Of a DNA stretch of 45,750 bases, positions 1-30,100 are shown in pieces. The stretch lies in IMG/VR virus record IMGVR_UViG_3300010151_006425, positions 1-45,750 of that record. The stretch is one strand, 5' to 3'. The notes under the pieces are model-generated. The model had not been told where the DNA came from. It did no database searches and was given only the letters and a program-made list of their open reading frames with translations. Source of the stretch: a virus. Position numbers and translations under genes: made by a program. Numbering within the stretch: the stretch's first letter is position 1; every line of letters begins with the position of its first letter.

Positions 1-459
1 CACTTCGAAAAGATACCGGAGAGTGATTATGATGACATCATGATGGTAAATGTAAAAGCTCCTTTCAAGATATCTCAAGCAGTATCAAAAAAAATGATGT
101 ATCACAAATACGGTAGAATCATTAATATAACCTCAATATTCGGTCATAACACGAGAGCAATGAGGGCGTGTTATACTACTTCGAAGTATGCTCTGACAGG
201 CATGACAAAGACATTAGCCGTAGAGATGGCTAGGCATAATGTGTTGGTTAATTCGGTCGCTCCGGGCTTTACAAAAACAGAGTTGACGGAAAAGATACTA
301 GGAAAAGTTGGGATGGAAGAGGTGTCCTCTGAACTTCCAATCGGAAGATTAGCAGATCCAAAAGAGATATCAAAAGCCGTACTGTTTCTATCCAGCGACC
401 TAAACACCTACATAACTGGGCAGAATATATTTGTTGATGGAGGGTTTACTTGTGTTTAA
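1..459 (+). CDS. Short-chain dehydrogenase/reductase, 5'-truncated by window edge
   Basis: This is the C-terminal part of a classical SDR oxidoreductase (FabG-like fold). The frame is open from base 1, so the gene begins outside the window. The first in-frame ATG (40) is internal, because the residues before it (HFEKIPESDYDDIM) match the usual SDR helix preceding the 'NVKAPF' segment. Visible hallmarks are the 'INITS' strand with the catalytic Ser, the YxxxK pair in 'YTTSK', the 'NSVAPGF' loop and the terminal 'ITGQNIFVDGGF', where SDRs usually read 'TGQ.l.vDGG'. The N-terminal TGxxxGIG cofactor motif lies off-window. The stop overlaps the next start by 8 nt (GTGTTTAA), implying translational coupling with the carbocyclase-like gene. 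Substrate is unknown; context suggests a keto-sugar, cyclitol or acyl intermediate of surface-glycan synthesis. Family confidence is high, specific reaction low. Confidence 0.88.
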   Translation, partial: HFEKIPESDYDDIMMVNVKAPFKISQAVSKKMMYHKYGRIINITSIFGHNTRAMRACYTTSKYALTGMTKTLAVEMARHNVLVNSVAPGFTKTELTEKILGKVGMEEVSSELPIGRLADPKEISKAVLFLSSDLNTYITGQNIFVDGGFTCV

Positions 460-1519
460 AGAAATCGAGATACAGTCTTATAGGGGAAAATATAAAGTCG
501 TTTTTTCTGAATTAGATTTCAATAATTTTAAAAACATCGATGAAACTAGTTTTTTGGTTATTGATTCAAAGGTTGATAAGTTATACCCAAACATAAAAGA
601 AAATTTTGAAGATAATTTAGTATTTGTTGTAGAAGCAATTGAATCAAACAAGACTGTTGGCAAGTGTGTGGAACTCCTAAATAAGCTAGTATCTAGCAAT
701 TTTAAAAGGAATCACAACATTGTAGCTGTCGGTGGTGGTATAATACAGGACATCGTTGGGTTTACATCATCTGTATTGTATCGAGGGGTGAATTGGACTT
801 TTGTTCCGACAACTTTGTTGTCTCAAACTGATAGTTGTATTGGTAGCAAGACATCAATAAATTTTGGAGATACAAAAAATCTATTAGGAACATTTCACCC
901 ACCTAAAGTAATTTATTGTTGTCACGAATTCCTAAACACCCTAGAAGAATCAGAGATAAGGTCGGGAATAGGGGAAATGCTACACTACTTTCTAGTTGAA
1001 GGAAGTCAGGCAGCTTTTGACATAAACGATCAGTACGATACATTGTTTAGTGATCGGTCACGATTGGAAAATTACATACATGAGAGCTTAACAATAAAGA
1101 AAAAAATGATCACTAAAGATGAGTTTGACCAACACGAACGCCGCGTTTTTAATTATGGTCACACGTTTGGTCATGCTATTGAAGCAATAACAAACCACAA
1201 AGTGCCACACGGCCAAGCAGTTACAATTGGCATGGATATTGCGAATTATGTATCATATAAAATGGGCAACCTAAAAGAAGACCAATACTTAAATATGAGT
1301 TATTTTTTAAAAAAGAACATGCCCAATTTCCGTCTAGAAGAAAGCATGATTGATTCTTATATAGGATTGTTAAAGAAAGACAAGAAGAATATTTCTAATT
1401 CAATAACTTGTATACTCCCTTACGCATTCGGGGATATTAGAGTTGAACACGTACAAGACATACAATTTCTTAAAAAAACGCTAATTGATTATATAAATCT
1501 AAATGAAAAGAGGGCATAG
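452..1519 (+). CDS. 3-dehydroquinate synthase-like sugar-phosphate cyclase
   Basis: Member of the DHQS-like, NAD- and metal-dependent carbocyclase superfamily (AroB, 2-deoxy-scyllo-inosose synthase, sedoheptulose-7-phosphate cyclases), which turn a sugar phosphate into a cyclic polyol ketone. Seen: 'GGGIIQDIVGF' nucleotide loop, 'VPTTLLSQTDS', 'GSKTSINFGDTKNLLG', 'RSGIGEMLHYF', 'NYGHTFGHAIE', 'VPHGQAV' and a 'KKDKK' tail motif. Probable metal ligands are E175, H237 and H253. The lysine normally four residues into the 'aEviK' motif is His178, so ordinary AroB activity is doubtful. GTG at 452 is preferred over TTG 431 because GGAGGG (439-444) sits 7 nt upstream. That gives 355 residues, normal for the family. 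It overlaps the SDR by 8 nt and the aminotransferase by 1 nt. A cyclase beside an SDR and a PLP aminotransferase resembles aminocyclitol pathways; that is inference. Confidence 0.85.
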   Translation: MFKEIEIQSYRGKYKVVFSELDFNNFKNIDETSFLVIDSKVDKLYPNIKENFEDNLVFVVEAIESNKTVGKCVELLNKLVSSNFKRNHNIVAVGGGIIQDIVGFTSSVLYRGVNWTFVPTTLLSQTDSCIGSKTSINFGDTKNLLGTFHPPKVIYCCHEFLNTLEESEIRSGIGEMLHYFLVEGSQAAFDINDQYDTLFSDRSRLENYIHESLTIKKKMITKDEFDQHERRVFNYGHTFGHAIEAITNHKVPHGQAVTIGMDIANYVSYKMGNLKEDQYLNMSYFLKKNMPNFRLEESMIDSYIGLLKKDKKNISNSITCILPYAFGDIRVEHVQDIQFLKKTLIDYINLNEKRA

Positions 1520-2709
1520 TGAGGAATATTTCTAGGAGCAGTAGAAACCGTATAAACATAGATCTCGACAAGAGCCATGACTCATACATACATGATAAAA
1601 CATCTGGCAAGGAGTATTTGGATTTCTTTGGAATGTATGCTTCCCTACCTCTGGGTTACAACCACAAGGTATTCAAAACAAAGGAATTTACAGAAGAAAT
1701 ATTGAGAGCAAGCTCTATCAAAATTACAAACTGTGAGGTTATTTCTGATGAAGCCACAGAGTTTGACAAAGCATTTCAGGAGTATTGTTCAACTAATTCA
1801 AAGTATAAAATGTTTCACTACTGTTGTACTGGAGCGTTAGCCTTGGAAGCAGCAATTAAGTGCGCGATAAAGTATAAAGGTCACAATAAAAATCCAAAAG
1901 TATTATCTTTTGAGGGGTCTTTTCATGGAATTAATAGTTGGGGATGCTTCATTACGTCTAGGGAAGGGTCATCTGATAGCAGACTTTCCCCATATCCGGA
2001 AGCATTTTCAGTTAAAGTACAAAGCCCAAATTTACAGGACCAGATTGAGGGAGTTATCAACAAGATAGAAAGTATTGCGAATGATCTTACAGCCATTGTA
2101 GTTGAGCCAATACAGTGTACAATAGGTGACAGGTATTATAAAAAAGAATTTTTTGCTTCCTTGAGAGAGGTGTGCGATAAATTTGACATTCCGTTAATAT
2201 TTGACGAGGTACAGATTGGATTCGGCAGTACGGGTAAGATATGGTATCATGATCACCTAGATATAGATCCTGATATTGTGATGTTTGGTAAAAAAACTCA
2301 ACTCTCTGGCATAATGGCGACAGAAAAAATGTCAAAAATATTTCAAAACGCTATCGAGCTTGAGGTGACTTGGGATGCCACTTTACTTGATATGATCAGG
2401 TGTAAGTACATAATATCTGCTTATAAGGAATGTGAAATATTAAATAATGTTGTAAGTAGAAGTGAACAAATTGTTAATGGTCTTCATCAAATTAGAAGCA
2501 TTGAGGGTATAAGGAACAGTGGTTTAATAATGGCTTTTGATATAAAAGAGGAAGAAAACTTTAAAAATTTCGTGAAAAAATCAAAAAGTTATGGTATGAT
2601 ATTTAACAGCAGTGGAAACAAAACAGTTAGGTTAAGACCAAATTTAAATTTAAGCGAACAAGAAGCGAATAAAGCTTTAAATATAATAGAACTTTCTTTG
2701 AAAAGTTAA
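1519..2709 (+). CDS. Class-III PLP aminotransferase, L-lysine 6-aminotransferase-like
   Basis: Fold-type I class-III aminotransferase (396 aa). The pattern is closest, from memory, to L-lysine 6-aminotransferase: 'YLDFFGMYASLPLGYNH' near the N-terminus, 'CCTGALALEAAIK' for phosphate binding, 'SFEGSFHGINSWG', 'VVEPIQCTIGD', 'LIFDEVQIGFGSTGK' with the PLP-pyridine Asp, and 'FGKKTQLSGIMA'. Lys259 (second K of GKKTQ) is the likely Schiff-base lysine. 'STGK.WYHDHLDIDPDIVMFGKKTQ' is strongly LAT-like, but 'FHGINSWG' differs from the usual glycine-rich 'fHGrt' loop. The start is GTG inside TAGTG, so the gene is coupled to the cyclase upstream. In this operon it may aminate a cyclitol or sugar ketone, or supply an amino-acid-derived substituent. 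The substrate cannot be read from the sequence. Confidence 0.85.
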   Translation: MRNISRSSRNRINIDLDKSHDSYIHDKTSGKEYLDFFGMYASLPLGYNHKVFKTKEFTEEILRASSIKITNCEVISDEATEFDKAFQEYCSTNSKYKMFHYCCTGALALEAAIKCAIKYKGHNKNPKVLSFEGSFHGINSWGCFITSREGSSDSRLSPYPEAFSVKVQSPNLQDQIEGVINKIESIANDLTAIVVEPIQCTIGDRYYKKEFFASLREVCDKFDIPLIFDEVQIGFGSTGKIWYHDHLDIDPDIVMFGKKTQLSGIMATEKMSKIFQNAIELEVTWDATLLDMIRCKYIISAYKECEILNNVVSRSEQIVNGLHQIRSIEGIRNSGLIMAFDIKEEENFKNFVKKSKSYGMIFNSSGNKTVRLRPNLNLSEQEANKALNIIELSLKS

Positions 2710-2726
2710 AGTAATAAGGAGACGTA

Positions 2727-3305
2727 ATGAAAATTGATTTTGAAAGTATTGAGCAAAAAACACACGACGTAATAGATTCGGAAGCCTATTCTGAACTGGT
2801 GGAGTCTGTAAAACAGGCAAAGAAGATTTTTTTAATAGGAAATGGAGGTCTACACTATGTTGCTAGTCATATGTCGACAGACTTATCTCGCCTAATACCA
2901 GATAAGACATGTTACTCGTTTGACAACGTTGGATTTATTACTTCGAATGCTAATGACCACGGCTATGAACACATTTTTGAAAGATGGCTGGAAACTACTG
3001 CTCTAGTAGAGGATCCAAGTGAATGTTTAGTTGTTGGAATGTCTTGTTCCGGCAATTCAACAAATGTTATCAATGCCTTACATTGGGCAGATGAGCATAG
3101 CTTTTCTACTCACATGATTAGTGGGCAGAAGTCCAAAAAACTAAAAAGCAATATCAAAGAATTGACTTATGGATGTGAATATTTTCACACGGTAGAAGTT
3201 ATGACAATGATGATTTTCTACGAATTGATTCACCAAACAGGGAACCACTGTCCGTCAATCAACCAAGAAAAGAAACGAATGGCTGATTCTCCTTTAAGGT
3301 CTTAA
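2727..3305 (+). CDS. SIS-domain sugar-phosphate isomerase, GmhA-like
   Basis: A 192-aa single SIS domain, the size of sedoheptulose-7-phosphate isomerases (GmhA/DiaA group). Seen: 'IFLIGNGGLHYVASH' (family GNGGS.a.A.H) at residues 34-48, 'NDHGYEHIFER' and 'VVGMSCSGNSTNVINAL' (family gisTSGnS.Nvi). AAGGAG lies at the expected distance before ATG 2727. Two departures are visible: Leu follows GNGG where Ser is usual, and the C-terminal helix reads 'TVEVMTMMIFYELIH', lacking the Gln and His residues I recall as catalytic in E. coli GmhA. It may therefore act on a different sugar phosphate. If it does use sedoheptulose-7-P, it shares that substrate with some cyclases like the one upstream. It sits in the glycan operon, 17 nt after the aminotransferase. 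Confidence 0.82.
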   Translation: MKIDFESIEQKTHDVIDSEAYSELVESVKQAKKIFLIGNGGLHYVASHMSTDLSRLIPDKTCYSFDNVGFITSNANDHGYEHIFERWLETTALVEDPSECLVVGMSCSGNSTNVINALHWADEHSFSTHMISGQKSKKLKSNIKELTYGCEYFHTVEVMTMMIFYELIHQTGNHCPSINQEKKRMADSPLRS

Positions 3306-3306
3306 T

Positions 3307-4236
3307 ATGTTTTATGATTCAAGTTGTTCCTCTAAGCACAAAGATCACATGTTGCCATTTAGGGCTACATTTTCATCTTTTGATGCTGGCGGGGAAAAAA
3401 ATGATATGGAGTTTCTCTCTCTCGTAAGAAGAAGAGATGAAAATAAAAAGACCGCTTATGTCATAGGTACTGGTCCAAGCCTCAAGGGCGTGGACATGTC
3501 TAAATTGAAAAATGAAGACACCATCACTTTCAATAGAGCGTATGTTGCTTTTGATGATTGGGGGTTTCATCCAACTTATTATTTGTCAATAGATAGTCAA
3601 GATTTAGAGTCAATATCTGAAGACATTGTTGGCTTAATGGATCAGGGAAAAATAGAGAAGTATTTTTTACCACACGATAGTCATTTCTACCACTTAGCAA
3701 ATTCCAATCAATATCGAGATAAGATAACTTTATTACAAGACACTCCCGAAAGCTGGAAGATGGCATTATCATTTAATGAATGTATTGCCCTTGGGAAAAC
3801 TAACACATTAATAACTCCAATTCTAGCTAGTGCTGGTTATATGGGGGCGAAAATGCTTTACTTAATGGGCTACAGCGAGGTTGTTTTGCTTGGGTGTGAT
3901 GCTTATTATAGAACAGATGAGGAGTCCCAAAGGAGTGTTATATGGGATGAAGATGGGTGTGTATCTCAAGAGGACTATGATCCAAATCATTTTAGAGACG
4001 ATTATTTTGGAAAAGGACAAAGGTTTGGGCGACCCACTTCCACAGAAGAACAAATACAGTGGTGGAATACTGCTGCCATCAACGTCGATTTACACAAAAG
4101 GTTCGACTCTAAGGAAGATTTTAATATATTTTCCTGCTCTGAAGGGTCAAAATTAAATAGCGTATTTCCGTACATACCGTTCGAAGAGTTTATGTTAGGG
4201 CGAAGACGACCACAAAATATACCATTGGAACGCTAA
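3307..4236 (+). CDS. DUF115/MptE-like protein, putative glycan transferase
   Basis: A 309-aa protein whose core starts with 'AYVIGTGPSLKGVDMSKL' (about residues 51-68), followed by 'FNRAYVAFDDWGFHPTYY' and 'LPHDSHFY'. This 'G.GPSL...' Rossmann-like opening is typical of DUF115/MptE-like proteins and resembles bacterial sialyltransferase-type (Cst) proteins, found in flagellin and surface-glycan loci. A later segment 'ASAGYMGAKMLYLMGYSEVVLLGCDAYY' is the second conserved block. The ATG is 2 nt after the isomerase stop, with AAGG 7 nt upstream. It has a downstream paralogue sharing both blocks and an ending of the type 'VFPY.....'. No signal peptide or membrane segment is evident. A role in transferring a nucleotide sugar in the cytoplasm is plausible but not demonstrated. 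MptE-type diphosphokinase activity is an alternative. Confidence 0.65.
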   Translation: MFYDSSCSSKHKDHMLPFRATFSSFDAGGEKNDMEFLSLVRRRDENKKTAYVIGTGPSLKGVDMSKLKNEDTITFNRAYVAFDDWGFHPTYYLSIDSQDLESISEDIVGLMDQGKIEKYFLPHDSHFYHLANSNQYRDKITLLQDTPESWKMALSFNECIALGKTNTLITPILASAGYMGAKMLYLMGYSEVVLLGCDAYYRTDEESQRSVIWDEDGCVSQEDYDPNHFRDDYFGKGQRFGRPTSTEEQIQWWNTAAINVDLHKRFDSKEDFNIFSCSEGSKLNSVFPYIPFEEFMLGRRRPQNIPLER

Positions 4237-4241
4237 ACTCT

Positions 4242-5297
4242 ATGTCACGATATAGGCACACAATCCGAGGAATTTACGATGAACTTAAATCTTGCTACTG
4301 CGATGATTCTTGTGAGGAATATGGAGACTGTTGCGATGATTGCTATGAGGAGGAGAAAAGAAAAAAAATGACAATTCCCGCATCTAAGACAAAGACCGAT
4401 ACATTTATAGAGAAAACGTATTCATCTTTAAAAAGTAAACATTCAAAACAAAAAAAAGATTCTATATTTATTATTGGATCTGGTCCCTCTCTTAACACTT
4501 GTAACATGGGAAGTCTTAAGAAATATAATACATTTTCAATGAATCGGCAGTATATTTCATATGAAAAATGGGGATTTTTTCCGACATACTATGGATGTAT
4601 AGACAGGTTATTAGTTAAAACCATAGCAAACGACATTGGTAGAATGGTAGACAACAATATGAAGTCTAGACCGTTTCCTATAAAAAACTTTTTCCTTCCT
4701 AGCGATTTCGCGAAGCAAAATTGGGAAGCTTCCCAAGTTGATGCCGGTGTGATTCTAATGGGCACATATTCTTCTTTAATTCCAGATACAGAATTAGAAA
4801 AGTTAAAAACGTATGTTAAAGGAAGGGGTAGAATAAGAAAAAATGATTTGTATAAACTAGCAACAAAAATCAATAAACCACGCTCCTCTTTCGATAATTC
4901 TGAAGCTCCTGCACATTTGAGAAATCGAGGACATATCTCAATACTGGCAGAATCTTGGTCTAATTGCGGAATATTCTGTACTAATATTGCTGCAGCACTT
5001 GGATATAAAAATATTTATTTGCTAGGAATGGATATTATATACCATAATGATGAAACAAAAGATCACTATGACGTTAAATATTTTGATACTGATCATTTTA
5101 CAATTAATTCAACACATGGCAGAATAACAACAGAGGGCGATACAATTAGAGATTGGAACCTGCTTAAAAGCATGGTGTCGTCTCCATGTTATTATAAAGA
5201 CTCTCCAAATATAATTTCTTGTACTCCGAACTCTCCAATAAACGAGGTGTTTCCATATCAAAGCCTCGATAAGGTCACACATGATTTACAAAAATAA
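4242..5297 (+). CDS. DUF115/MptE-like paralogue with cysteine-rich N-terminus
   Basis: A 351-aa paralogue of the preceding protein: 'IFIIGSGPSLNTCNMGSL', 'MNRQYISYEKWGFFPTYY', 'NFFLPSDF', 'NIAAALGYKNIYLLGMDIIYH' and 'NEVFPYQ' align with the neighbour's blocks. It adds an N-terminal head of about 45 residues with six clustered cysteines (C18, C20, C24, C30, C31, C34) in the order C-x-C-D-x-x-C-x5-C-C-x-x-C, followed by a strongly charged EEEKRKKM stretch. The head looks like the core of a somatomedin-B repeat. The gene starts 5 nt after the previous stop and overlaps the fucose synthase gene by 17 nt. Likely a glycan-assembly enzyme; the head may bind metal, form disulfides or mediate docking. 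The paralogy is seen directly; the function is inference. Confidence 0.65.
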   Translation: MSRYRHTIRGIYDELKSCYCDDSCEEYGDCCDDCYEEEKRKKMTIPASKTKTDTFIEKTYSSLKSKHSKQKKDSIFIIGSGPSLNTCNMGSLKKYNTFSMNRQYISYEKWGFFPTYYGCIDRLLVKTIANDIGRMVDNNMKSRPFPIKNFFLPSDFAKQNWEASQVDAGVILMGTYSSLIPDTELEKLKTYVKGRGRIRKNDLYKLATKINKPRSSFDNSEAPAHLRNRGHISILAESWSNCGIFCTNIAAALGYKNIYLLGMDIIYHNDETKDHYDVKYFDTDHFTINSTHGRITTEGDTIRDWNLLKSMVSSPCYYKDSPNIISCTPNSPINEVFPYQSLDKVTHDLQK

Positions 5298-6201
5298 ACA
5301 ATTAAAAAAAGTTTTTGTTACAGGTGGTTCCGGATTTATTGGAACAAGATTAAAAAAACAAAATCCAAACTGGACATTTTTGTCCTCAAGGGATTGCGAT
5401 CTCACCGACTACCCCAGTGTCCGTGACCTGTTCGCATCAGAAAAGCCAGACGCAATTTTACATCTTGCTAGTAAGGTTGGTGGCATTAAAGAAAACTCTA
5501 CAAAGCAAGCAGACTTCTATGATGTCAATACGTACATAAACACAAATGTTTTAAAATCAGCTCATAAGGCGGGGATTAATAGGGTTTTATCATGCTTGAG
5601 TACATGTACTTTCCCAGATGTCGTAAACACCTACCCATTTGTAGAAGAGGATATATTATCGGGACCACCGGCTAAAACAAACTTTACTTATGGTTATACA
5701 AAAAGAGCCTTGCTAGTACAAACAAATGCTTATAGGCAGCAATATGGAGTAAACTACTCTACATTTTGTCCATCGAATATATATGGCCCAAATGATAACT
5801 TTGATCTAGAAAGTTCACACTTCGTGCCGGCTATGATAAGAAAGCTACATGAAGCAAAAGAAGGAGATACAGTTGAATTTTGGGGTACAGGAAGCCCTCT
5901 TAGGCAGCAATTATACGTCGATGACTTAGTGAGGATAATTCCTTTTATCTTGGATAACCACAACACCGATGTGCCGTTAATCATATCTCCCGATCAAAAC
6001 TTGTCGATAAAAGAAATGATAGAAATATTTTTAAACAATGTAGAAAAAGATGTTAAAATAGTGTTTAATAACAAGTTAGATGGTCAATATAGAAAAGATG
6101 GATCTAATAAAAAATTCAAAGAACTGTATGGTGATTTTGAATTTACTAAATTTGAAAATGGAGTTTTAAAAACTTATGAGTGGTACAAAAAAAGCAAATA
6201 A
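5281..6201 (+). CDS. fcl: GDP-L-fucose synthase (epimerase-reductase)
   Basis: Extended SDR that converts GDP-4-keto-6-deoxy-D-mannose to GDP-L-fucose with NADPH. Seen: Rossmann '[11 protein letters not shown]' (11-21), '[15 protein letters not shown]' and '[18 protein letters not shown]', the latter characteristic of GFS. Also seen are 'LSTCTFP' (Ser107/Cys109 positions) and the YxxxK pair Y137/K141. '[13 protein letters not shown]' with '[14 protein letters not shown]' is the substrate side. Length (306 aa) is normal. ATG 5281 is 10 codons before the Rossmann strand and overlaps the previous gene by 17 nt. It is followed, with a 26-nt overlap, by the enzyme that makes its substrate, so the pair forms a complete GDP-mannose to GDP-fucose route. 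Colitose- or perosamine-type variants are possible but less likely given the GFS-specific KVGGI motif. Confidence 0.9.
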
Positions 6202-7180
6202 AGTTGCTATTATCACAGGCATTACAGGTCAAGATGGCTCATATCTCGCTGAGCTTTTACTGGAAAAAGACTATAAGGTTGTGGGATTAAAGAGAAGAAC
6301 CTCTCTTATATGTACCGATAGGGTCGATCACCTTTTTTCAAATAAAAACTTTACATTAGAGTATTTCGACCTCAACGATGCTGGTTGTATGTGGTCCTTG
6401 ATCAATAAGTATAAGCCCGACGAGATCTACAACTTAGCAGCACAATCCCATGTCAGAGTTTCTTTTGATTTGTCAGAGCATACTGTGGATGGTATCGCTA
6501 TGGGAACACTAAGGTTGCTTAACGCCGCAAAAGAATTAGTACCAGAGTGTAAAATATATCAAGCATCCTCCTCAGAAATGTATGGGGATAATCCCAATTA
6601 TCCTTTTAATGAAGAGTCGACCCTTATGCCAGCATCTCCATATGCTTGCGCTAAGGTTTTCGCTCATAACCTCGTAAGAAACTATAGAATGTCGTATGGT
6701 CAGTACGCTTGTAGTGGAATTCTATTCAATCATGAGTCTCCAAAAAGAGGCGAGACTTTTGTCACTAGAAAAATTACTATGGCAGCAGCAAGAATCAAAC
6801 TAGGTCTTCAAGATAAACTATTTTTAGGCAATCTTGATGCCAAAAGAGATTGGGGTTTTGCTGGGGATTATGTAAAATTGATGTACATGATGCTCCAACA
6901 AGATAGTCCTGATGATTATGTTATTGCTACCGGCGAGACACATTCTGTAAAGGAATTTTTAGATGCTGTTTTCGATCAAGCAGGTCTCGGAAGCGCAGAA
7001 AAATATGTTGAGATTGACCCAAGACTTTTTAGACCACAAGAGGTACCTTACCTACTAGGGGATTCAACAAAGGCAAGAGAAAAATTGGGATGGACACCCG
7101 AAGTTACATTCGAAGGTCTCGCTAAGATGATGTTCGAGGCAGACTTAGAGCATTTTAAAAAAGAAATAGGAGAAAAATAA
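6176..7180 (+). CDS. gmd: GDP-mannose 4,6-dehydratase
   Basis: Dehydrates GDP-D-mannose to GDP-4-keto-6-deoxy-D-mannose. Seen: '[19 protein letters not shown]' with G15-x-x-G18-x-x-G21, 'LKRRTS' (NADP-type recognition), '[12 protein letters not shown]' and 'QASSSEMYG' with the Ser/Glu catalytic pair near 133-134. YxxxK is Y156/K160, and '[19 protein letters not shown]', '[16 protein letters not shown]' and '[15 protein letters not shown]' are all hallmark Gmd segments. At 334 aa it is slightly short of the usual 345-370. ATG 6176 lies inside the preceding gene (26-nt overlap). The product feeds the neighbouring fucose synthase. All catalytic residues appear intact, so activity is expected. 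Last gene of the glycan operon. Confidence 0.95.
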
Positions 7181-7929: not shown

Positions 7930-8616
7930 ATGACTAAGACTAAGAAAAAAAACTTATATTTTACAAAAGTACACGAGAATGCGATTGTGGAGTATGCACG
8001 AACAGACGATATCAAGGTAAGAACAGAACTTTATATAGATTATATCGAGCCAGCATTTAATGAAATGGTGGATAAAATTATCTATACATATAGATTTACA
8101 AGCCTTCCCAACATCGATGTTCTCAAAGATGAGTGTAAAATTTGGCTCACAACCATATTGGATAAGTACGATCCAAATAAAGGCTCTAAAGCCTTCTCAT
8201 ATTTTAGTGTGATCACGAAAAACTGGTTTATTCACAAGGTTAGAAAAACAAACCAGAGTAACAAAAGAGAAGTAAAACTAGACGATCTGCCAAGAAACAT
8301 AGATATGTCAAAAGTTGTAGTTCAAAACGAGTACCACTCTAAGCGAGAAGAATATGAGTTTTGGAAAAACTTGTGGGAAGAAATAAATCTATGGGAAAAA
8401 ACAATTAACATGAAGCCGAATGAGGAAAAGGTATACGAGGCTATTCGTATGTTGTTATCTTCCCCTGATAATATAGAAATATACAACAAAAAAGCCATTT
8501 ACTTTTACATCAGAGAGATCACAGGTCTAAACACAAAGCAAGTCGTCAATAACCTCAATAAAATGAGAGTTAGATATAGATTATTTAAAAAGAAATGGGA
8601 TCGTGGAGAAATATAA
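7930..8616 (+). CDS. 55: Late-transcription sigma factor, T4 gp55-like
   Basis: A 228-aa sigma-like protein. The central segment 'DKYDPNKGSKAFSYFSVI' with 'TKNWFIHKVRK' directly after it (about residues 77-107) is the sigma region 2 core typical of T4 gp55 and relatives (pattern f.p.kG.aFsYft.ia.n). It directs host RNA polymerase to phage late promoters, in T4 together with the clamp and gp33. The C-terminal region 'FYIREITGLNTKQVVNNLNKMRVRYR' looks like a helix-turn-helix that could read promoter DNA, and is more than T4 gp55 (185 aa) carries. It starts 1 nt after the membrane protein gene; the Shine-Dalgarno is weak (GTGGAA). The presence of this gene implies a distinct late promoter set for the virion genes that follow. 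Confidence 0.85.
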   Translation: MTKTKKKNLYFTKVHENAIVEYARTDDIKVRTELYIDYIEPAFNEMVDKIIYTYRFTSLPNIDVLKDECKIWLTTILDKYDPNKGSKAFSYFSVITKNWFIHKVRKTNQSNKREVKLDDLPRNIDMSKVVVQNEYHSKREEYEFWKNLWEEINLWEKTINMKPNEEKVYEAIRMLLSSPDNIEIYNKKAIYFYIREITGLNTKQVVNNLNKMRVRYRLFKKKWDRGEI

Positions 8617-19596: not shown

Positions 19597-21179
19597 TGGG
19601 AATATATAGATATACAGCGAGTGCTGACAATACAATTACAAATGCTTTCCGGTCTAATTTGGTCGGCAGAGGCACTGGATCAAACATGGGGGCTTCAGAT
19701 GTGCTAGAAGCTTTTTACATAGCTGGTCAAACCTCATCTTCTTCGGGATTGTCCTCAGAAAAGTCAAGGATTTTAATAAACTTTCCATTTTCCACCATTG
19801 AGACAGACAGAAGCGCTAGTGTGCCTCTTATACCAGCCAGTGGTAATGTTGAGTGGTACCTGAAGCTATACAACGCTAGACACGCATCTACATTACCAAA
19901 GAAATTTAATATCTCCTTACATCCGATATCAGCATCATGGCAAGAAGGCGATGGACTAGACATGGATGAATACACAGATCAAACTTATGGTGTTTTAAGT
20001 GGATCAAACTGGATCAATTCATCTTTGGGAACCGACTGGACAACTCAGGGCGGAGATTATATTGGAATTGGAGATGAAAACACAACAGGATTACAATACT
20101 TTCAAGATGGTACTGAAGATTTAGAAATAAACATATCTCATATCGCAGAAAAAATGCTTCATGGATCTGGATCTGGTTTAGCAAGATATGGATTTGGAAT
20201 AATGTTGTCATCAAGTTATGAAACGGGGTCTCAAACTTATTATACAAAAAAGTTCTTCGCTAGATCTAGCGAGTATTTCTTTAAAAGACCGACCCTAGAG
20301 GCCCGATGGGACTCTTCTGATAAAGATAGAGCAGGTAATTTTTACGGAGCTAGCAGCTTTGCTAGTCGTGATGACAATGTTAACACCATATACTTGTATA
20401 ATTATGTCAGGGGTCAACTTAAGGACATTCCAGACCTAACAGACAATCTTATATATGTATCATTTCATTCTGGAAATGCTGATAATTCCGCAGTTGCAGA
20501 AAATACTGCCAGACTGTCAATCAGAAATAAGGGTCAAGGTAACGGATCGACATCTACACATATCGTAGGTGGCAAAAAAAGCTTAGGAATTTACACAGCA
20601 AGTGTAATATATCCGGCAGCATTGCCAACAACGCCAGCCGAGGCAGATCCATCGACAATATTTCCAGTGTGGCAAGACTCGACGTCAGGATTAAGCTCAG
20701 GTGCTGGTATCAAATATCATACTGGGTCTGCTATAGGCGTGAAAGACCTTAATGCTTCCAATTTTAATACAAACCCGTCATATGTGACAGATATTACCAA
20801 TTTGAAAAGTTTATATTCTAAAGATGAAAATGCTAGATTTAGATTATATATTAGAGAAAAAGATTGGAATCCAACAATTTATACTGTTGCTAATACAGAA
20901 ATAGAAAATTATATTGTTGAAGACGCATATTTTAAACTGTTTAGAATTGTTGATGATATGGAGATAATTGGATTTGGTACCGGGTCTGCTAGCACTCCCC
21001 AACAAACAGGCTCTGCGGGATCATATACAAGATTATCTTATGATATTTCTGGTAATTATTTTGATTTTAATATGGACATGCTTGAGGCTGGATATGCATA
21101 TGGGCTGAAATTCGCCTATTACGCAAATGGAAGATACTCAGAGCAGCCCGAGGTTTTTAAGTTTAAGGTTGAAGATTAA
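19596..21179 (+). CDS. Virion protein with DNRLRE/CBM-like N-terminal domain
   Basis: A 527-aa protein coupled by TAATG to gp6. The N-terminal 230 residues resemble a DNRLRE (CBM96-like) beta-sandwich: 'KSRILINFPFSTIE' corresponds to the 'r.lirFdls' strand, 'VEWYLKLYNAR' to the 'a.L.ly' strand, and 'ISASWQEGDGLDM' to the 'tesWsE..g.' loop. Such domains occur in surface and fibre proteins. The rest is Ser/Gly-rich beta sequence ending 'EAGYAYGLKFAYYANG'. Its position between gp6 and the giant LamG protein suggests a baseplate-peripheral or receptor-related part. No cleavable signal or transmembrane region. The family assignment is moderate and the virion role is inferred from position. Confidence 0.7.
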   Translation: MGIYRYTASADNTITNAFRSNLVGRGTGSNMGASDVLEAFYIAGQTSSSSGLSSEKSRILINFPFSTIETDRSASVPLIPASGNVEWYLKLYNARHASTLPKKFNISLHPISASWQEGDGLDMDEYTDQTYGVLSGSNWINSSLGTDWTTQGGDYIGIGDENTTGLQYFQDGTEDLEINISHIAEKMLHGSGSGLARYGFGIMLSSSYETGSQTYYTKKFFARSSEYFFKRPTLEARWDSSDKDRAGNFYGASSFASRDDNVNTIYLYNYVRGQLKDIPDLTDNLIYVSFHSGNADNSAVAENTARLSIRNKGQGNGSTSTHIVGGKKSLGIYTASVIYPAALPTTPAEADPSTIFPVWQDSTSGLSSGAGIKYHTGSAIGVKDLNASNFNTNPSYVTDITNLKSLYSKDENARFRLYIREKDWNPTIYTVANTEIENYIVEDAYFKLFRIVDDMEIIGFGTGSASTPQQTGSAGSYTRLSYDISGNYFDFNMDMLEAGYAYGLKFAYYANGRYSEQPEVFKFKVED

Positions 21180-24100
21180 TGACAAAGTACGGTGACAAAA
21201 GTAGTGGCTTGAAATCTCTTTTTGGCAAATCAAACGCTAAGGGGACATCCTCATCAAAATTCGTTTCATCTGCGAGCATGGATTCTTTGGGAGACCAAGT
21301 AGAATCAGCAGGATATATCAAGGTTGAATTAGAGAATAAAGAAAGAGTTGTACCAACTGTAGATTTTTCTAAACCCTCTAATTTTGCAAAATATGGATCC
21401 GCAGAACAATATTATAAAACATCTATTGAAAGAATATACAAGACCTATCCATATGATGGCTCTAAAAAAGAAAAAATTCAATGGAGTCTAACATCTTCAT
21501 ATATAGACAATTACATTTTTGAAAACGAATACCCCAGAACAAATGGGTTTATATCTGTATCTCCTCTTAACGGAGGTTTAGCAAAAAATCTTACGAACAA
21601 CCCCGGCACAGGTATTGAATCCTATACTCTGGCAACGAGTCCTCAATATATTGGTGTAAAGGGTGGTCCAAATCAAGCCTCCCTTCCAATCTACGATCAA
21701 GGTCTAAACAAGAGTACAGACTTTAAGAACCCAGAGCATAAGGCAAATTTTTACGATACAGCCAACAATAGGGCAAAAAACATCACGATAAACGGAACGA
21801 CAGGTAATACCATAGAATTCTGGCTTAGATCTGATGGAAATCTACTCACAACTAAGGCTATTTACGATGCTTGGAACAGCGATGGGACCAACGAGACACA
21901 ACCCGGAAGCGCAAGTTATGGGCGTATGTTACTTGAGAACAGGTTTGAAATATCTACTGGAAACTTTGTTGATGGACATTTGTTTCACCTAACATATCAC
22001 TCGGGCACCACAGGGGCTGAAAGAGTACCATTATTGCCAATTTCCGTTGTGGGAACACCCACAAACGGAATCTTTGACCACTTCTCCGTCACTGTTAAGA
22101 ATAGTGGAAATCAATTGAACATTAAAACTTTTTTTAATGGGGCGCTTATAGATAACAAACTTACAGGATCTGCTGTTTTAGAAGTAACAGGAGCATCTGC
22201 AGGGGGTATAGACGCAAACATTGGTGCCTATAGGACTTATCCAACAGAATATGTTAAGGCACAAGCGCTAGGACTAGGAACGCCTATAACTGATTTTAAT
22301 GCTTTTGGTAACATGACCGCATCTTTTGATGAATTTAGGGTTTGGAAAACAGCAAGAACAGAAAGTCAAGTACAAAGAAATTGGTTTTCTCAAGTTGGAG
22401 CCGGAACAAATACTGATATCTCCAATACAAAACTCGGCTTTTATTTTAAATTTAATGAAGGTATAGTCGGGCAAACAAGCACAGATCAGGTAGTGTTAGA
22501 TTACTCTGGTCGAGTTTCAAACGGTGTATATAATAATTACTCCTCAACTAGCAGATCCACAGGGTCAGCCATGGTTTTAGCAGGAGCAGCAGAGAGAGAA
22601 TTTAAAGACCCGATATTGTACCCAATACATCCAGATGTATCCTCGTACAAAACAGATGCCATGAAAAAGGGAGAGGAGTGGGACTACAGAAACCCATCTT
22701 TCCTCTTTAATACACTTCCCGAATGGATCCAATCAGAGGATTCAGATTCAGGCAGGGATACATCACTAGCTCTAACTCAAATATTAGCAAGTTATTTTGA
22801 TACTCTTTATTTACAAATACAAGAGATGCCAAAAATTAAAACTGCTAGGTATTTGAGTAGCAGCGTCGACGTAAATGTGAAGCCAGTTCCGTTTGCTTCA
22901 AAGCTTTTGAAAAACGCTGGTTTTGTGGCACCTGAGATATTTGCAGATACAGATGTGATTGCCGCCCTTTCTCACCGAGATGACGATAGGGAGTATGAAA
23001 AAAAGCTATATGACATAAAAAACTATATCTATCAAAACATTTATAACAATTTGACATACATCTACAAGTCAAAAGGGACTGCTAAGTCTATCCGCAACCT
23101 AATAAGATGCTTTGGTGTTGGGGAGGAGATATATAAATTAAATTTATACGCTAATAACGCAGAATACAATCTAGTAGACAACTTTGTTGATAAAACAGTC
23201 AGAAAAACATATGCTGATTTTAATGATGTAACAAGAAATGATGCTACTGTCTACTCATACAAAAACACTTCCGAATCAAATAATACGGGGTACATAACTG
23301 GAAGCACAAACACATCAACAGGATTTGATAGTGGCATGGCCATGACTGTAGAGTCCGAAGTCATTTTACCGAGAAAAACAGAGTATGGGGATCCAAATTT
23401 TCAAAACAAGTATTATGCTTACCTTACTTCGTCTTTGTTTGGAATGCATTCTGCGAAAGCAGATCCGGGGTCGGATGCTCAGACGGTCACAACTTGGGAC
23501 TCTAATGATTATGCTAACTTCCAAGTTTACGCGGTTTCAGACACCTTTCAGATACACGAACAGGATTCAAAAAGCGTACAATTTATCTTAAAGAGTTATA
23601 ACAGCGTATTACCAACCTTAACGAGTAGCATATATTTAAACCAATATCAAGATGTAAAGTGGAATTTTGCTGTAAGAGTAAAGCAAAAAGGCTATCCTTA
23701 TGTGGGCACGAATATAACAGGCTCTACTGGAAAGGCATATGACGTAGAATTTGAAGGAGTTAGCACTGTATCTGATGTTGTTGTAAACACATTTAAAGCA
23801 ACAGGTTCAATAGCAAGCGCAGCAGGATTAAACTTTATAACACAGAAAAAGCGTCTTTATGTTGGGGCGCACAGGACAAACTTTACAGGATCATTGAGAG
23901 AATATTCAGACGCCCAAATAACATCATGTAGATATTGGGCAGATGATTTGACTAGCGATGAGTTGAAGTATCACTCAATTGATTCCACATCTAAGGGTAT
24001 TAACAATCCTGAAAAAAATGCTTACTTAACAATACCCAGACCAAATTCAAGTATAGAGATCCCAAGAATTAAAACATTGATTTTAAATTGGGAATTTGAT

Positions 24101-27100
24101 ACAATTACAGGGTCAGATGGCAGTGGTCAATTTGTAGTTAAAGATAGCAGTTACACAATAAATCAAGATGAAAAGTTTCAAGAATGGGGAGTTGATTTAG
24201 AGAATTTTATAGAGTCAAACCACGATGCTCGCGGTGACTTTTTTGAAAATAACAGTACAGACTCGGTAGCAAAAGAATTTATTCAGGTGTATAAACAACA
24301 ATTGCCAGAGAATCTAAATGATTCCAACATGATTACAGTTGCTGTTACAGATGATCTTACATTCACTAAAGAATCCAGACCAGTAAAATTTTCATTCTCC
24401 TTAGAAAAAAGCATGTACCAGACGATATCAGAAGAAATGTTAAATTTTTTCTTGGCATCTAAAGAAGCTAGTTCATTGGAGAATATTGTAGGAGATCCTG
24501 TCAATAGATATAGAATGGGCTTCAAATCCATGGAGAAGGTAAGGAATCTATTTTACAATACAGTTGGTAACACTCCGGATCTAGAGAAATATTTAAATTT
24601 CTATAAGTGGCTGGACAATTCTATTTCAGAAATGGTAAAGACACTGAAACCAGCTTCGGCAAATTTGCCAGATGTTAGAAACATGGTAGAAAACCACTTG
24701 CTGGAGAGAAATAAATATCAAAGCAAGTTTCCAACACTAGAGAGAAAAGACGGAATTATACAGGATGCCGCTAGGGGAATAAACGAATTAACTTATGATT
24801 GGAAAAGAGGACACGCCCCAACTCCCCCCGTAGCGGGAACAAATCAAGACGAAAACTGTTTATGGTGGAATAAGAGAGCCCTTCGTGATGAAGCTGGGTT
24901 GAGTTCTGGAAATACAGGTGTTGATTCAAACAGGAGAGCGATACATTCATCATCGATACAAGTTTTTAATAGAAAACTAGACACCCCAGTAAAGTTAAGG
25001 CTTGACAATCAAGGACTAGGGAAAAGCCTCAACAAAAGACAATTTGTCTTTGCCGAAACACCTCCCGGAACTGGAAAGAACGTAGCATTTAATACAACCA
25101 CGTTTAGCAAACCAGTGGTTTGTGACGATACAACAGATATAAACCCTCAGTTTAAGTTTAAGCCTCAGTTTAAAGCAGAGGGTGATGTAGTAGGATCCAG
25201 ATTTCAAGGGAGAACTGTTTCACCAGTTGTTTTCTATAGTTCATCTGTTGGAAGCCAGAATACAGATCCAACAGGATACTTAAAGACAACTCAACATCTT
25301 CAAGATTATTATGTTGATACAAAAGATATTCCACTCCAAGGTCCCTTTACAGAACAACATGTTGGAGGGTACCAATACAGGCACACAGGATTAAATATAG
25401 CTGCAGCCACAACAAGAAAAGAGGGCTGGTATACAACCACATCCGTTGTCGGTGGAGAGACATATTTCATAATTTATAATCCATTCGCCATATCGTCAGC
25501 TTATCCTAGAGCCGGATATTCAAGGGATAGTATCGCTAAAAGTCCCCTTAATATAAAAAACATTAAGAATATAACTAGCTCCCAAATAGCATCGGCAGGA
25601 GGCACAACCGACCAGTATGGCAGCTCAATAGCGCTTGGGAATTATTCGCATGATTATGAAATCGTACAAATTCCGGGCAGATCAATAAACAACAAATATT
25701 TTATTGAGAACTCTGGTATATTAACGGGATCATCAGCAACAACAGCAGTAAGGTCTGTATATGACAGAGAAATGCCAAATCGTGGAAAAAACAAATATGT
25801 TTTTGTTAGTAGATTTTCTGCCCCCGGAAGTCCTGAAACTATGGGTGCGGGATATCTGGATTTGGAATCTGAGAGCTTTTCTGTGTATAATGCCTTGCCA
25901 TTCAGAAACTTGGCTGTTAGTTCACCACTAAAGACTTTACTGACAAGGCATAGTTTATTTGGTGGACACGATAGTGTAGCTGGAGCCCCATCAGCATCTT
26001 TTCAAAAGACACAGAGGAATGGGGCAAAAAGATTAAAAATAAATAATCAGCCAGCTATAGGTGCTCATGACGGGCTCGGTTTAAACTTGGTGACAGGAAC
26101 AACCTTTGATAATGGCTTTGTTCAACATATGATACCACAAAGCGACATGCAGTACGCTTGGATTACAGCTTCTGCTACATCCGGTCCATATGGTTATTCA
26201 CAGCCAAATGCTTCCAATGCCTCTATGGCTTCAACAGATATTACGTTTATAAGCGCCAGCCAACATGCTTCTATCGAAAGTTTTTTTGGAGGCGGCACCT
26301 TATTTAGAACTTTTGGCTCAATTCAGGGAAATAGTAACGCATACGACACTTTGAGGGTCAACACTGATTTTGTAGGCTTAAATTATCACGCCATAGGCGA
26401 TATAACAGCTTCTACAAATACTTTGGGAGTTTCTTTTAACTCTGACTTTGCGAATGGTGGATTTTTTAATGACAGTGCTGGAAACAAGGCAGCGGGGTTT
26501 ATCGGACAACCATCAACCTTGAATGCGATAAACTTAAACAGAAACGGAGCAGGGGGTTTTTCATCTTGGAAGCAAGTAAGGCTAGGGGATCACCCCCTAG
26601 TCAGAGACATGAGAGAAAATAACAGAATGTCTTTCATCAGAACACAAAATACTGTAACAACTGAAATAAATGATGGTGTTACAATAGCTCGGAATGTTGA
26701 AGAAGAGAAGTTGTTTTCTTATACAGAGCCACCTGTCAGTTCAAAATACAAGCCCTTGAGGCATCAAATTCAATTATGGAATTATCAAAACCAAAATGGA
26801 TTATCCGGTCCAGAAGTTATTGTCAATAGCAGTTATGGGAATAATCTAGCATATTTTACAATGACCAACACTAGTGGAATTCCAAACGTATTTGAAAGTA
26901 TGACAAAGACAATAGGCTTCCAGCCAGACCACGTTAACCAAGTGTATGATGATTTAAAGAGAATCTACATCGATAACGAATATGACGGGGCTCTTATGGG
27001 ATCGGATCCTATAAAGATTGTTAATTCTCTAAGGTATAGAGAAACGGTTTATCCAAGAGAATCATTTACATTTTTAGCCAAAACTAGAACAAGAGAGAAT

Positions 27101-30100
27101 TACGGCGAAGCCAGTGGGTCGAATGATTTTAATAGACCCCTTGGCAAGGCAAGGACATTTTGGAGAGACGATAGAAACAACCGATTGAGATCTATTGGCT
27201 CCGCTTTCAATTCAATGGGTAGGGCAATCGAAGTAGGAACTTTTAAAACAACAACTTATGATAATGTAATTGATTTAAGTTGTTGGCCACTAGAGGCTAA
27301 TTATCCAATGGTCATAATATCTCCAACTGGCGCTGGAGCAGTATTAAGTGGAGCTGTCTCCACAGGTCAGGGAGAGGGGTCGTTAAGCTTGCCGACAGAT
27401 ATATCTTTAAAGAGCCTCAATGGAGAGTTGTCTTATAACAACTGGGTATACAATTTGTACAGAACTCCTGTACAGGGATTGGCAACATCTGCCCCGACAA
27501 CTTTAACGTCCAGCACCAATGCCAGTCCGCCCCCAACAGCATCTTTAAGCTATGAGTATCCAAATTTTGTTTTATCTGGCAATGATGTGAACTTCGCTGG
27601 CTCTCAATACACAATATCTCACCTGAATCTAATACCAGATTGGAAGGCTAATGTTCAATGTGGTAGAAATCCATGGTTTGATTCATATGACGAGTATTCT
27701 AACGACATTAGAAGGATCGGTAAGGATTACACTGTCATACCGGAATTTAGAATTTCAGACCATATGGACTATTACTTAAAAAATGGTTTTGAGGCAGAAA
27801 ATAAGAAATTTATGGATCTTATCGGATCCTCCCTATCCTCTACCTCAAGCGCGACATCTGAGAATTCCAAGGCAGTAAACTCTGAATTCTTTAGGATATA
27901 TTCGCACACTGATTTCATGAAGCACTTTGAGGTCTTAAGAACCGAGCATGTTTCAGCGCCTTCCGCAAAAATCAACAGTGCTTTGATACCGTCTAGAATA
28001 AGAATAAGCTGTAAGGGTATTAAAAAGTTATTGCCGTATCAAGGGTTTTATCCTGCTTTGAGAACAGTACAGCTAGGTCAAATGTTTTCTTCTTCATATG
28101 GTCCATATCTGACAGGAAACTATGACCACGTTGACCCAATTGATGGAAACGAAAGCACAGAGCAACAAAAGATATCTTCACTAATCCAGCCATTTTTTGC
28201 GCCCGGAATTATGTTTAACACTATTAAGTCGGGTGTGGCTGTCGACTGGCCAGTTATAACAGGGTCGATTGAGAGCAAAACTCCTCTTTTGGTTTCCACA
28301 GGCTCTGAGCCAGTATATGGATATAGAGCGGCTGCCTTCTGTAATTTCGATCCAGACTGGAGAATGCCATTTGAGGCACTTGTAGCGCCAAACGAATATT
28401 TACCATCATTTAATGTTAACGCGAACGAGACTTTAGCTAACAGACCAGATGCGTCTATATATCATATTTGGCCAAACTATCCAACCGGAAATCTTAATCA
28501 AATGAGTCAAGCGAGGAGGTACTCTGAGCCAAACAACGGAAATTCAGGCACCCCAGAAGAATTCAGAAATTGGTATGATTTGGGAAACTACACTAGACCA
28601 TCTCCAAATTTTGCTTGGACAGGAGAGTTTGACAACAGATACAATTTAGCAATGAATAATTTCTTGGCTGAAACTATCGACTTTTTTCTAGAGGATAGGC
28701 AAACAACCACTTTTGTATCCAAGCCAGAAAAAGATTTTAAAACAATGGTGTCTGGCACAACGTATATAATGGACGTAGTAATGTCGAAAACAGATGGTTT
28801 TAAAATGTACGAGGGACCAGATAAGCTATTTAATGTCGCATCACTTAGGACGGGTTCATCTAACTTTGCTACAACAGCATCTGTATCAGCAAGGGGTCTT
28901 CATTACGGTCCATTTTTTGGAACCCAAAAGCAGCACACAAATATGGGCGAATTATCAAACATAATATTAAGACAGATTGGTGACCCCGGTCCAGCACCGT
29001 ATACTCCTCCGTATTTCTACGGAAGTTCTGTCGCTAGGATAGCATTTAGACCTCACGCATTAAGACCAATGGAGCCCGGAGAAGCAGACAAGTTTACTTT
29101 GTCAGAAATATTCTCTTCGGCAGAAATAGAAACAGTATATTTAAATCAAAACGAGAACTCAAATGGAAGATTTCAGGGCATCGGAGCTAACAGGGGTTTT
29201 GCTTCTGCTTCAGCAGCATACAGAAACCAGATGGATCTTAAATCATCGATGAGATTGTTTGAAAGAACAGGAAAGAAATTTAAATCTTACATGCCAATAA
29301 AGCTAGAGAATGGAGAATTCACTTATGTTCCCCAAGCAGTAACACAGCCAACGGATTCCTCCAATGATGTTTGGATTATGGAAACAAAATTCGAATGCCC
29401 AACACTAAACTTCGAAGGTCAAGAGTCGAATAGCAGAACTTCATATTCCAACGGTGATGGCAACGAAAGAAATCTAACAACAGGTATGTGGAAAACCTTT
29501 GGATCACTACCTGAAGACAACGAGGGCATATTCTTACAGATAAAAGACCCATTCCCACAAATAACAGAAGGAACTAAAGCTGCTATCAGGGGTTCTTCCA
29601 CAGAATCAGTTAACCCAAGAACCGGAGAATCAGAATCTAGGGGTCCCAGCAGGCAAACTGTGTCTGGGAGAGCAGGAGGAGAAAGAAGTCTTGAAATACC
29701 AACAACTGGATCGTTAATACAGATTTGCGGATTTGATTCTAGAAGAAAAAGGGTTGGAGAAATAGCCTCAAGTAAAGTTATTAGTGAGGCTATCATTGCA
29801 ATACCGATTAATCAAAATGGGTCCAAGGTAAAGATACCTGCTAGTGCGTTTGCTACACAACTAAACAACCTAGACACTTCGGGAATCGCAATTAAAGAAG
29901 GGCAACTTGGAGTAAAACAAGAAATTAAAGAGACTTCAGTAACAAGTATGATCAAGAAAATGAGAAAGTATGTAATACCGCCTCATTTGGACTTTATAAA
30001 CAACCCTTCCATAGAACCATTTGTGATGTACATATTTGAATTTAATCATAAATTGACTAAAAATGATTTATCTTTAATTTGGCAAAATGTAATGCCAGAC

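Follow-up and report, generated by a model that had tools for sequence, protein, structure and literature searches.

The virus record IMGVR_UViG_3300010151_006425 (45,750 bases, classed as linear and probably a virus fragment; the whole record is called the window here) carries at its left end a homologue of the sugar-phosphate cyclases next to a short-chain dehydrogenase/reductase (SDR). Comparison with related loci shows that the SDR and cyclase genes move as one unit, standing where a phosphatase-like gene can stand. With confidence that is about evenly balanced, we propose that the cyclase would stand in for a phosphatase by closing a ring, both acting on one sugar-phosphate ahead of activation with cytidine monophosphate (CMP), within a phage glycan island.

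Four consecutive genes on the plus strand make up the part of the cassette that lies in the window, and one codon of the cyclase gene is listed with them.

1..459, plus strand: SDR, its 5′ end cut by the contig end (Pfam adh_short_C2, 1e-39)
452..1519, plus strand: sugar-phosphate-cyclase homologue of family TIGR04425, 355 aa, GTG start (DHQ_synthase, 3e-35; DHQS_C, 1e-31)
983..985, plus strand: codon of cyclase His178, at the position of Lys181 in the substrate pocket of Staphylococcus aureus 3-dehydroquinate synthase (DHQS), by alignment to the pocket residues of PMC6262012
1519..2709, plus strand: class-III pyridoxal-phosphate aminotransferase, lysine-6-aminotransferase-like (Aminotran_3, 6e-60)
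2727..3305, plus strand: SIS-domain sugar isomerase, diverged GmhA-like (GmhA models, 1e-17, all below cut-off; family alignment)

All four gene calls are real, as shown by Pfam and NCBIfam matches and by the adjacency of SDR and cyclase, which is far beyond chance: in 74 of the 81 viral loci the gene immediately 5′ of the cyclase encodes an SDR. An earlier note on this DNA described the genes as consecutive and largely overlapping. The order is as it stated, and "largely" was slightly too strong, the overlaps being 8 bases (SDR/cyclase) and 1 base (cyclase/aminotransferase), followed by a 17-base gap before the SIS gene. The best NCBIfam match of the aminotransferase is L-lysine 6-transaminase (TIGR03251) at 250.5 bits, far under the cut-off of 520.8, and the SIS protein scores 62-64 bits against GmhA models whose curated cut-offs run from 209 to 320 bits by model, which places it outside their membership.

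The swap became apparent from loci that were not selected through the cyclase. A single-sequence scan of IMG/VR gave no match; profile scans recovered the relatives, and the scan seeded by the cyclase yielded 80 loci, or 81 with the window. Cassettes found in this way carry an ascertainment bias, and the SIS protein and the aminotransferase served as seeds of further scans. The cyclase is nearby in only 25 of 46 aminotransferase loci, and no member of the cyclase family was found in any of the 11 records sampled from aminotransferase loci without a nearby cyclase. The closest kin of the window, L257 and L284 (Gmd 97%, GDP-fucose synthase 86% and SIS protein 85% identical), carry a 126-aa gene with HAD-phosphatase motifs (DFDGVIH ... 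EKPRAVYYIDDKA) between the cytidylyltransferase and aminotransferase genes, replacing SDR-cyclase. The same type of HAD gene occurs in L276, L296 and L303 (62-71% identical), and a second HAD-like family in L306 and L310. L305 and L306 are near-isogenic: their flanks are 93.7% and 93.4% identical, and they differ by the 1.75 kb SDR-cyclase segment in one (L305:9664-11417) versus the HAD-like gene in the other (L306:2468-2807). Among distinct loci with SIS and cytidylyltransferase genes and enough flank, 29 have the cyclase without a HAD gene, 10 the reverse, five both and two neither (Fisher p 3.7e-5, uncorrected for kinship); a HAD gene is thus present in 10 of 12 loci without the cyclase versus 5 of 34 with it. 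Enzymes of the DHQS type expel phosphate by elimination during ring closure, so the simplest account would be that cyclase and HAD protein act on one sugar-phosphate.

Sugar-phosphate cyclases are known chiefly from the shikimate pathway, antibiotics and sunscreens. Judged by its sequence, the window cyclase is not housekeeping AroB. Over its full length it scores 418.0 bits against TIGR04425 (417.5 from six frames), above a curated cut-off of 400 that none of 14 control genomes passed, and 275.4 bits against the aroB model TIGR01357, below the cut-off of 305. NCBIfam describes TIGR04425 as a hypothetical equivalog, "AroB-related putative sugar phosphate phospholyase (cyclizing)". We found no characterised member; our literature search returned no paper on the family, and none on sugar-phosphate cyclases of phages apart from one on a coral database, which is unrelated. 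In a tree of 109 sequences, built without 2-deoxy-scyllo-inosose synthase (DOIS), 2-epi-5-epi-valiolone synthase (EEVS) or desmethyl-4-deoxygadusol synthase (DDGS), 73 family rows form one branch (Shimodaira-Hasegawa-like approximate likelihood ratio 96) apart from 35 AroB-like rows, among them aroK-aroB genes annotated in Salmonella and Acinetobacter. The earlier note had read the gene as a DHQS-like sugar-phosphate cyclase and named clustering inside true AroB, together with conversion of DAHP, as counting against its pathway idea; the scores and the tree place the gene outside AroB. Motifs differ as well, with GGGxxQD and DSCIG in the cyclase versus GGGxxGD and DSSVG in AroB. Identity is about 25-30% to AroB, 23% to DOIS and 24% to ValA. 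The AlphaFold2 model (mean predicted local distance difference test score, pLDDT, 90.7) has the DHQS fold, with template modelling scores of 0.84-0.88 to the best AroB structures, 0.84 to DOIS and 0.80 to EEVS; fold likeness in the model does not separate the three.

The predicted active site resembles that of DHQS. Metal ligands are conserved, and of the 11 residues listed for the pocket that binds 3-deoxy-D-arabino-heptulosonate 7-phosphate (DAHP) in S. aureus DHQS (PMC6262012), ten are kept, Lys181 being replaced by His178. Of 95 distinct viral cyclases, 32 have histidine at this place, as do five bacterial ones; lysine stands there in all AroB and in the other, non-window cassette type described below. 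The pocket arginine that faces the carboxylate of DAHP is among the residues retained in the window cyclase. EboD and ValA belong to the same superfamily and are used outside primary metabolism; the window cyclase retains the pocket Arg, Asn and Lys that are missing from a representative EboD. Taken with CMP-type activation, the DAHP-type residues, carboxylate Arg included, favour a keto-acid-like substrate rather than one of the aminoglycoside or C7-cyclitol type. They are no proof of it, because 2-epi-valiolone synthases (EVS) resemble DHQS yet use sedoheptulose-7-phosphate (PMC5133447). A family-specific active-site fingerprint of 14 sites for EEVS, DDGS and EVS is credited to Kean et al. 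2014, as named in PMC4426668.

Two likenesses to AroB (the metal ligands and ten of 11 pocket residues) are what one would expect if the gene were a diverged DHQS that raises aromatic amino-acid supply during infection, as an ordinary auxiliary metabolic gene. We consider this very improbable. The cyclase falls in a separate clade and under the aroB cut-off, its context is glycan genes throughout with no other shikimate genes seen, and bacteria with a relative usually keep a separate aroB: an AroB-like gene is present in 12 of 14 such genomes, 10 of the 12 over the aroB cut-off.

The viral relatives fall into two kinds of cassette that scarcely mix in the cyclase-seeded set. The window type combines SDR-cyclase with a cytidylyltransferase (CTP_transf_3 plus cupin), the SIS protein, the class-III aminotransferase and often a GT29-like gene; the second, type B, combines it with an HpcH-like aldolase or NeuB-type synthase, a thiamine-pyrophosphate (TPP) enzyme and an RmlD-like gene. 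What sets the window type apart from the family at large is a His in place of the pocket Lys, and this residue goes with the SIS, aminotransferase and cytidylyltransferase genes: the His type has a cytidylyltransferase in 24/26 loci, SIS in 24/26 and an aminotransferase in 21/26, versus 2/55, 1/55 and 0/55 for the Lys type. Gene order varies between SDR-cyclase-aminotransferase-SIS and aminotransferase-SIS-SDR-cyclase with unchanged content, which indicates that the content survives rearrangement. L036 and most of L031-L074 are of type B (HpcH-like aldolase or NeuB-type synthase, SDR, Lys cyclase, acetolactate-synthase-like TPP enzyme, RmlD-like gene), a keto-acid synthase plus a DHQS-like cyclase within viral glycan clusters. 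The TPP enzyme, first assumed to belong to the cyclase pathway, adjoins RmlD and RfbH genes in G001 and may serve a branched sugar instead. L269, L273-L275 and L281 lack the SDR: their cyclase has SIS and cytidylyltransferase genes nearby, the aminotransferase is of the DegT type, and in L273 a radical SAM/SPASM gene separates cyclase from SIS. Bacterial relatives sit in O-antigen-like clusters. One of them, L091, encodes IolG-like oxidoreductases, a SIS protein, SDR, cyclase, 2-hydroxyacid dehydrogenase, HisC-like aminotransferase, KdsB-like cytidylyltransferase and a TIGR04326 surface carbohydrate protein.

At least 95 distinct viral cyclase relatives are present in IMG/VR. The earlier view that phage clusters usually carry no carbocyclase stands for deposited phages, where tblastn against 50,697 records gave 15 matches, all below 60% identity and far more distant, and no close phage kin. 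The matches that were fetched are AroB-like or lie beside aroK, and were set aside as chromosomal DNA or contamination. CAKLQH020000003 and AFYI01000003 (both aroK-aroB), MT836519 (an aroC-aroK-aroB-like run) and OR846630, all in the phage collection, hold bacterial AroB-like genes, read as chromosomal DNA rather than phage genes.

How the aminotransferase relates to the cyclase bears on two other readings. On the earlier note's view an amino-carbocycle is the joint product of cyclase, oxidoreductase and aminotransferase, with the last of these using what the cyclase makes, in the manner of aminoglycoside and C7N pathways. The strict co-occurrence in cyclase-seeded loci (the 21/26 above) speaks for it, as does the presence near the cyclase, in phages and bacteria, of non-homologous aminotransferases (class III, DegT and HisC-like). 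The claim is not supported as worded, since the unit of aminotransferase, SIS and cytidylyltransferase occurs without the cyclase in 12 of the 46 aminotransferase loci, and the aminotransferase tree is no guide to the presence of the cyclase: cyclase and HAD loci do not separate in it, with 6 changes, no fewer than in shuffled data. We regard a joint aminocyclitol pathway as unlikely, if still worth entertaining. Such modularity could also mean two independent building blocks, with aminotransferase, SIS and cytidylyltransferase leading to one CMP-sugar and SDR-cyclase to another, and the island common to both only through the glycan. The modules do occur apart (type B cassettes lack SIS and aminotransferase, and aminotransferase/SIS loci can lack the cyclase). 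Against it, the His-type cyclase is almost never without SIS (nearby in 30 of 32 distinct cases), and in L305/L306 the exchange is with a HAD gene in the same slot; we judge two separate products to be distinctly improbable.

The left region of the window forms the downstream portion of an island for glycan biosynthesis, in the T4-like phage lineage to which the virus belongs. From the SIS gene on, the gene run is unbroken through two sialyltransferase-like genes and two nucleotide-sugar genes, ending at 7180.

3307..4236, plus strand: glycosyltransferase with a CstI/CstII (GT42)-like predicted fold and CMP-sugar-type donor site (motif GTGPSL..D; Foldseek)
4242..5297, plus strand: second, diverged copy of the GT42-like glycosyltransferase (28% identity to the first copy, common motif)
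5281..6201, plus strand: GDP-L-fucose-synthase-like epimerase/reductase (Epimerase, 1e-51; GDPFucSynFcl, 210 bits, below cut-off)
6176..7180, plus strand: GDP-mannose 4,6-dehydratase, Gmd (TIGR01472, 446 bits, cut-off 415)

Both glycosyltransferase genes are MptE-like. The best Foldseek matches of the first are 2p56, 1ro8, 2p2v and 1ro7 (E 6e-6 to 3e-5), and all seven matches with E <1e-3 are sialyltransferases, on a model whose pLDDT is only 71.9. The genes at 3307-5297 share fold and the GxGPSL motif with the GT42 sialyltransferases CstI and CstII, and differ from them in having only 14-17% identity; the modelled fold of the first would fit a CMP-activated donor.

As the window is a whole record, the genes upstream of the cassette were read in kin phages. 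There, in a block common to these phages, PhoH, a PD-(D/E)XK nuclease and several glycosyltransferases are followed by RmlD-like, RfbH-like, 4,6-dehydratase, GT29-like and cytidylyltransferase genes, and the island, which includes CstII-like transferases, exceeds 20 kb at one site. No aromatic-pathway genes were seen upstream of the cassette in these phages; such genes were the other finding that the earlier note said would count against it. Upstream of the cassette, L012:3006-5317 and L171:10384-12001 encode an RfbH-like 3-dehydratase and a 4,6-dehydratase, joined in one of the phages by a TPP enzyme; these genes possibly form a separate branched or dideoxy sugar route. On the 3′ side of 7180 lie phage genes for a tail lysozyme domain, two baseplate wedge subunits, a RuvC-like nuclease and a primase. 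A baseplate protein of the window is common to 10 of 11 related phage records (33-50% identity), and the cassette has nearly the same G+C content as the remainder of the window. An assembly chimera was rejected on the grounds of the island and baseplate genes common to kin phages and of the same G+C. Just 3′ of the island, positions 7930-8616 encode a 228-aa protein with no PHROG or Pfam match that is 87% identical in L257, and a 3,151-aa open frame spans 21179-30634 between baseplate-type genes.

From the gene identities, families, synteny, swap and conserved residues observed here we infer a substrate, a product, an order of steps and a glycan target. The SIS protein would isomerise a sugar-phosphate. 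Phosphate would then be lost either by hydrolysis (HAD) or by ring closure, in which cyclase and SDR would probably convert a sugar-phosphate to a carbocycle by the NAD- and metal-dependent chemistry of DHQS; the likeliest candidate for this cyclase substrate is a phosphate of the keto-acid type, similar to DAHP. The aminotransferase would add an amino group before or after phosphate removal; its presence in both versions of the cassette implies that it acts before the split or on a substrate that the split leaves unaffected. Cyclisation may come after amination, or each may be a process of its own, and an aminocyclitol product is possible. The cytidylyltransferase, upstream in kin phages, would yield a CMP-activated product, and GT29/GT42-like transferases would transfer this product onto a glycan, either of the host surface or of the virion.

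The closest known scheme is the pathway to CMP-Kdo (CMP-3-deoxy-D-manno-octulosonate), in which the HAD phosphatase KdsC follows the SIS isomerase KdsD and precedes the cytidylyltransferase KdsB. The SIS, phosphate-removal and CTP-transferase steps around the swap correspond; in contrast, the window-type cassette has no KdsA-like synthase and has two additions, an aminotransferase and the option of SDR-cyclase. There is a precedent for phages encoding enzymes that change an uncommon sugar of the host surface: EpaA and EpaB of Acinetobacter baumannii prophages modify pseudaminic acid, without a cyclase (PMC12053666). Bradyrhizose, an inositol-fused O-antigen sugar, was considered and no link was made; its paper calls the genes unknown and names only gdh and rfaL.

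Several observations weigh against the cyclase being a ring-closing alternative to a phosphatase. No keto-acid synthase was seen in the window-type cassette, the aldolase or NeuB genes being confined to type B. A CMP-activated carbocycle would lack the ring oxygen on which ordinary glycosyl transfer relies. The cyclase activity and its substrate are themselves predictions, the HAD proteins have no Pfam match and are called phosphatases from their motifs, and the swap statistics ignore kinship among loci. Exclusion is also not strict, given the two loci with neither gene and the five with both. One of the five is strong: around the SIS gene of L216, a HAD-like gene (173 bits) and SDR-cyclase stand in one cassette. 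A more specific possibility, which we offer as speculation, is that phages and some bacteria make a CMP-activated carbocyclic, possibly amino-, ulosonic-acid analogue, with the TIGR04425 cyclase replacing the phosphatase of a Kdo-like pathway and sialyltransferase-like enzymes attaching the product to glycans; this would be an undescribed class of surface sugar.

The enzyme superfamily and phage glycan islands are already known; the TIGR04425 branch, its cassettes and the exchange of cyclase for phosphatase appear to be undescribed. Synteny seeded by the cyclase alone would have over-credited the aminocyclitol idea. A whole uncharacterised branch of cyclases sits in phage and bacterial surface-glycan clusters, and the natural swap with a phosphatase-like gene marks the pathway step of the cyclase, offering a direct route to finding out what TIGR04425 and a phage glycan do.

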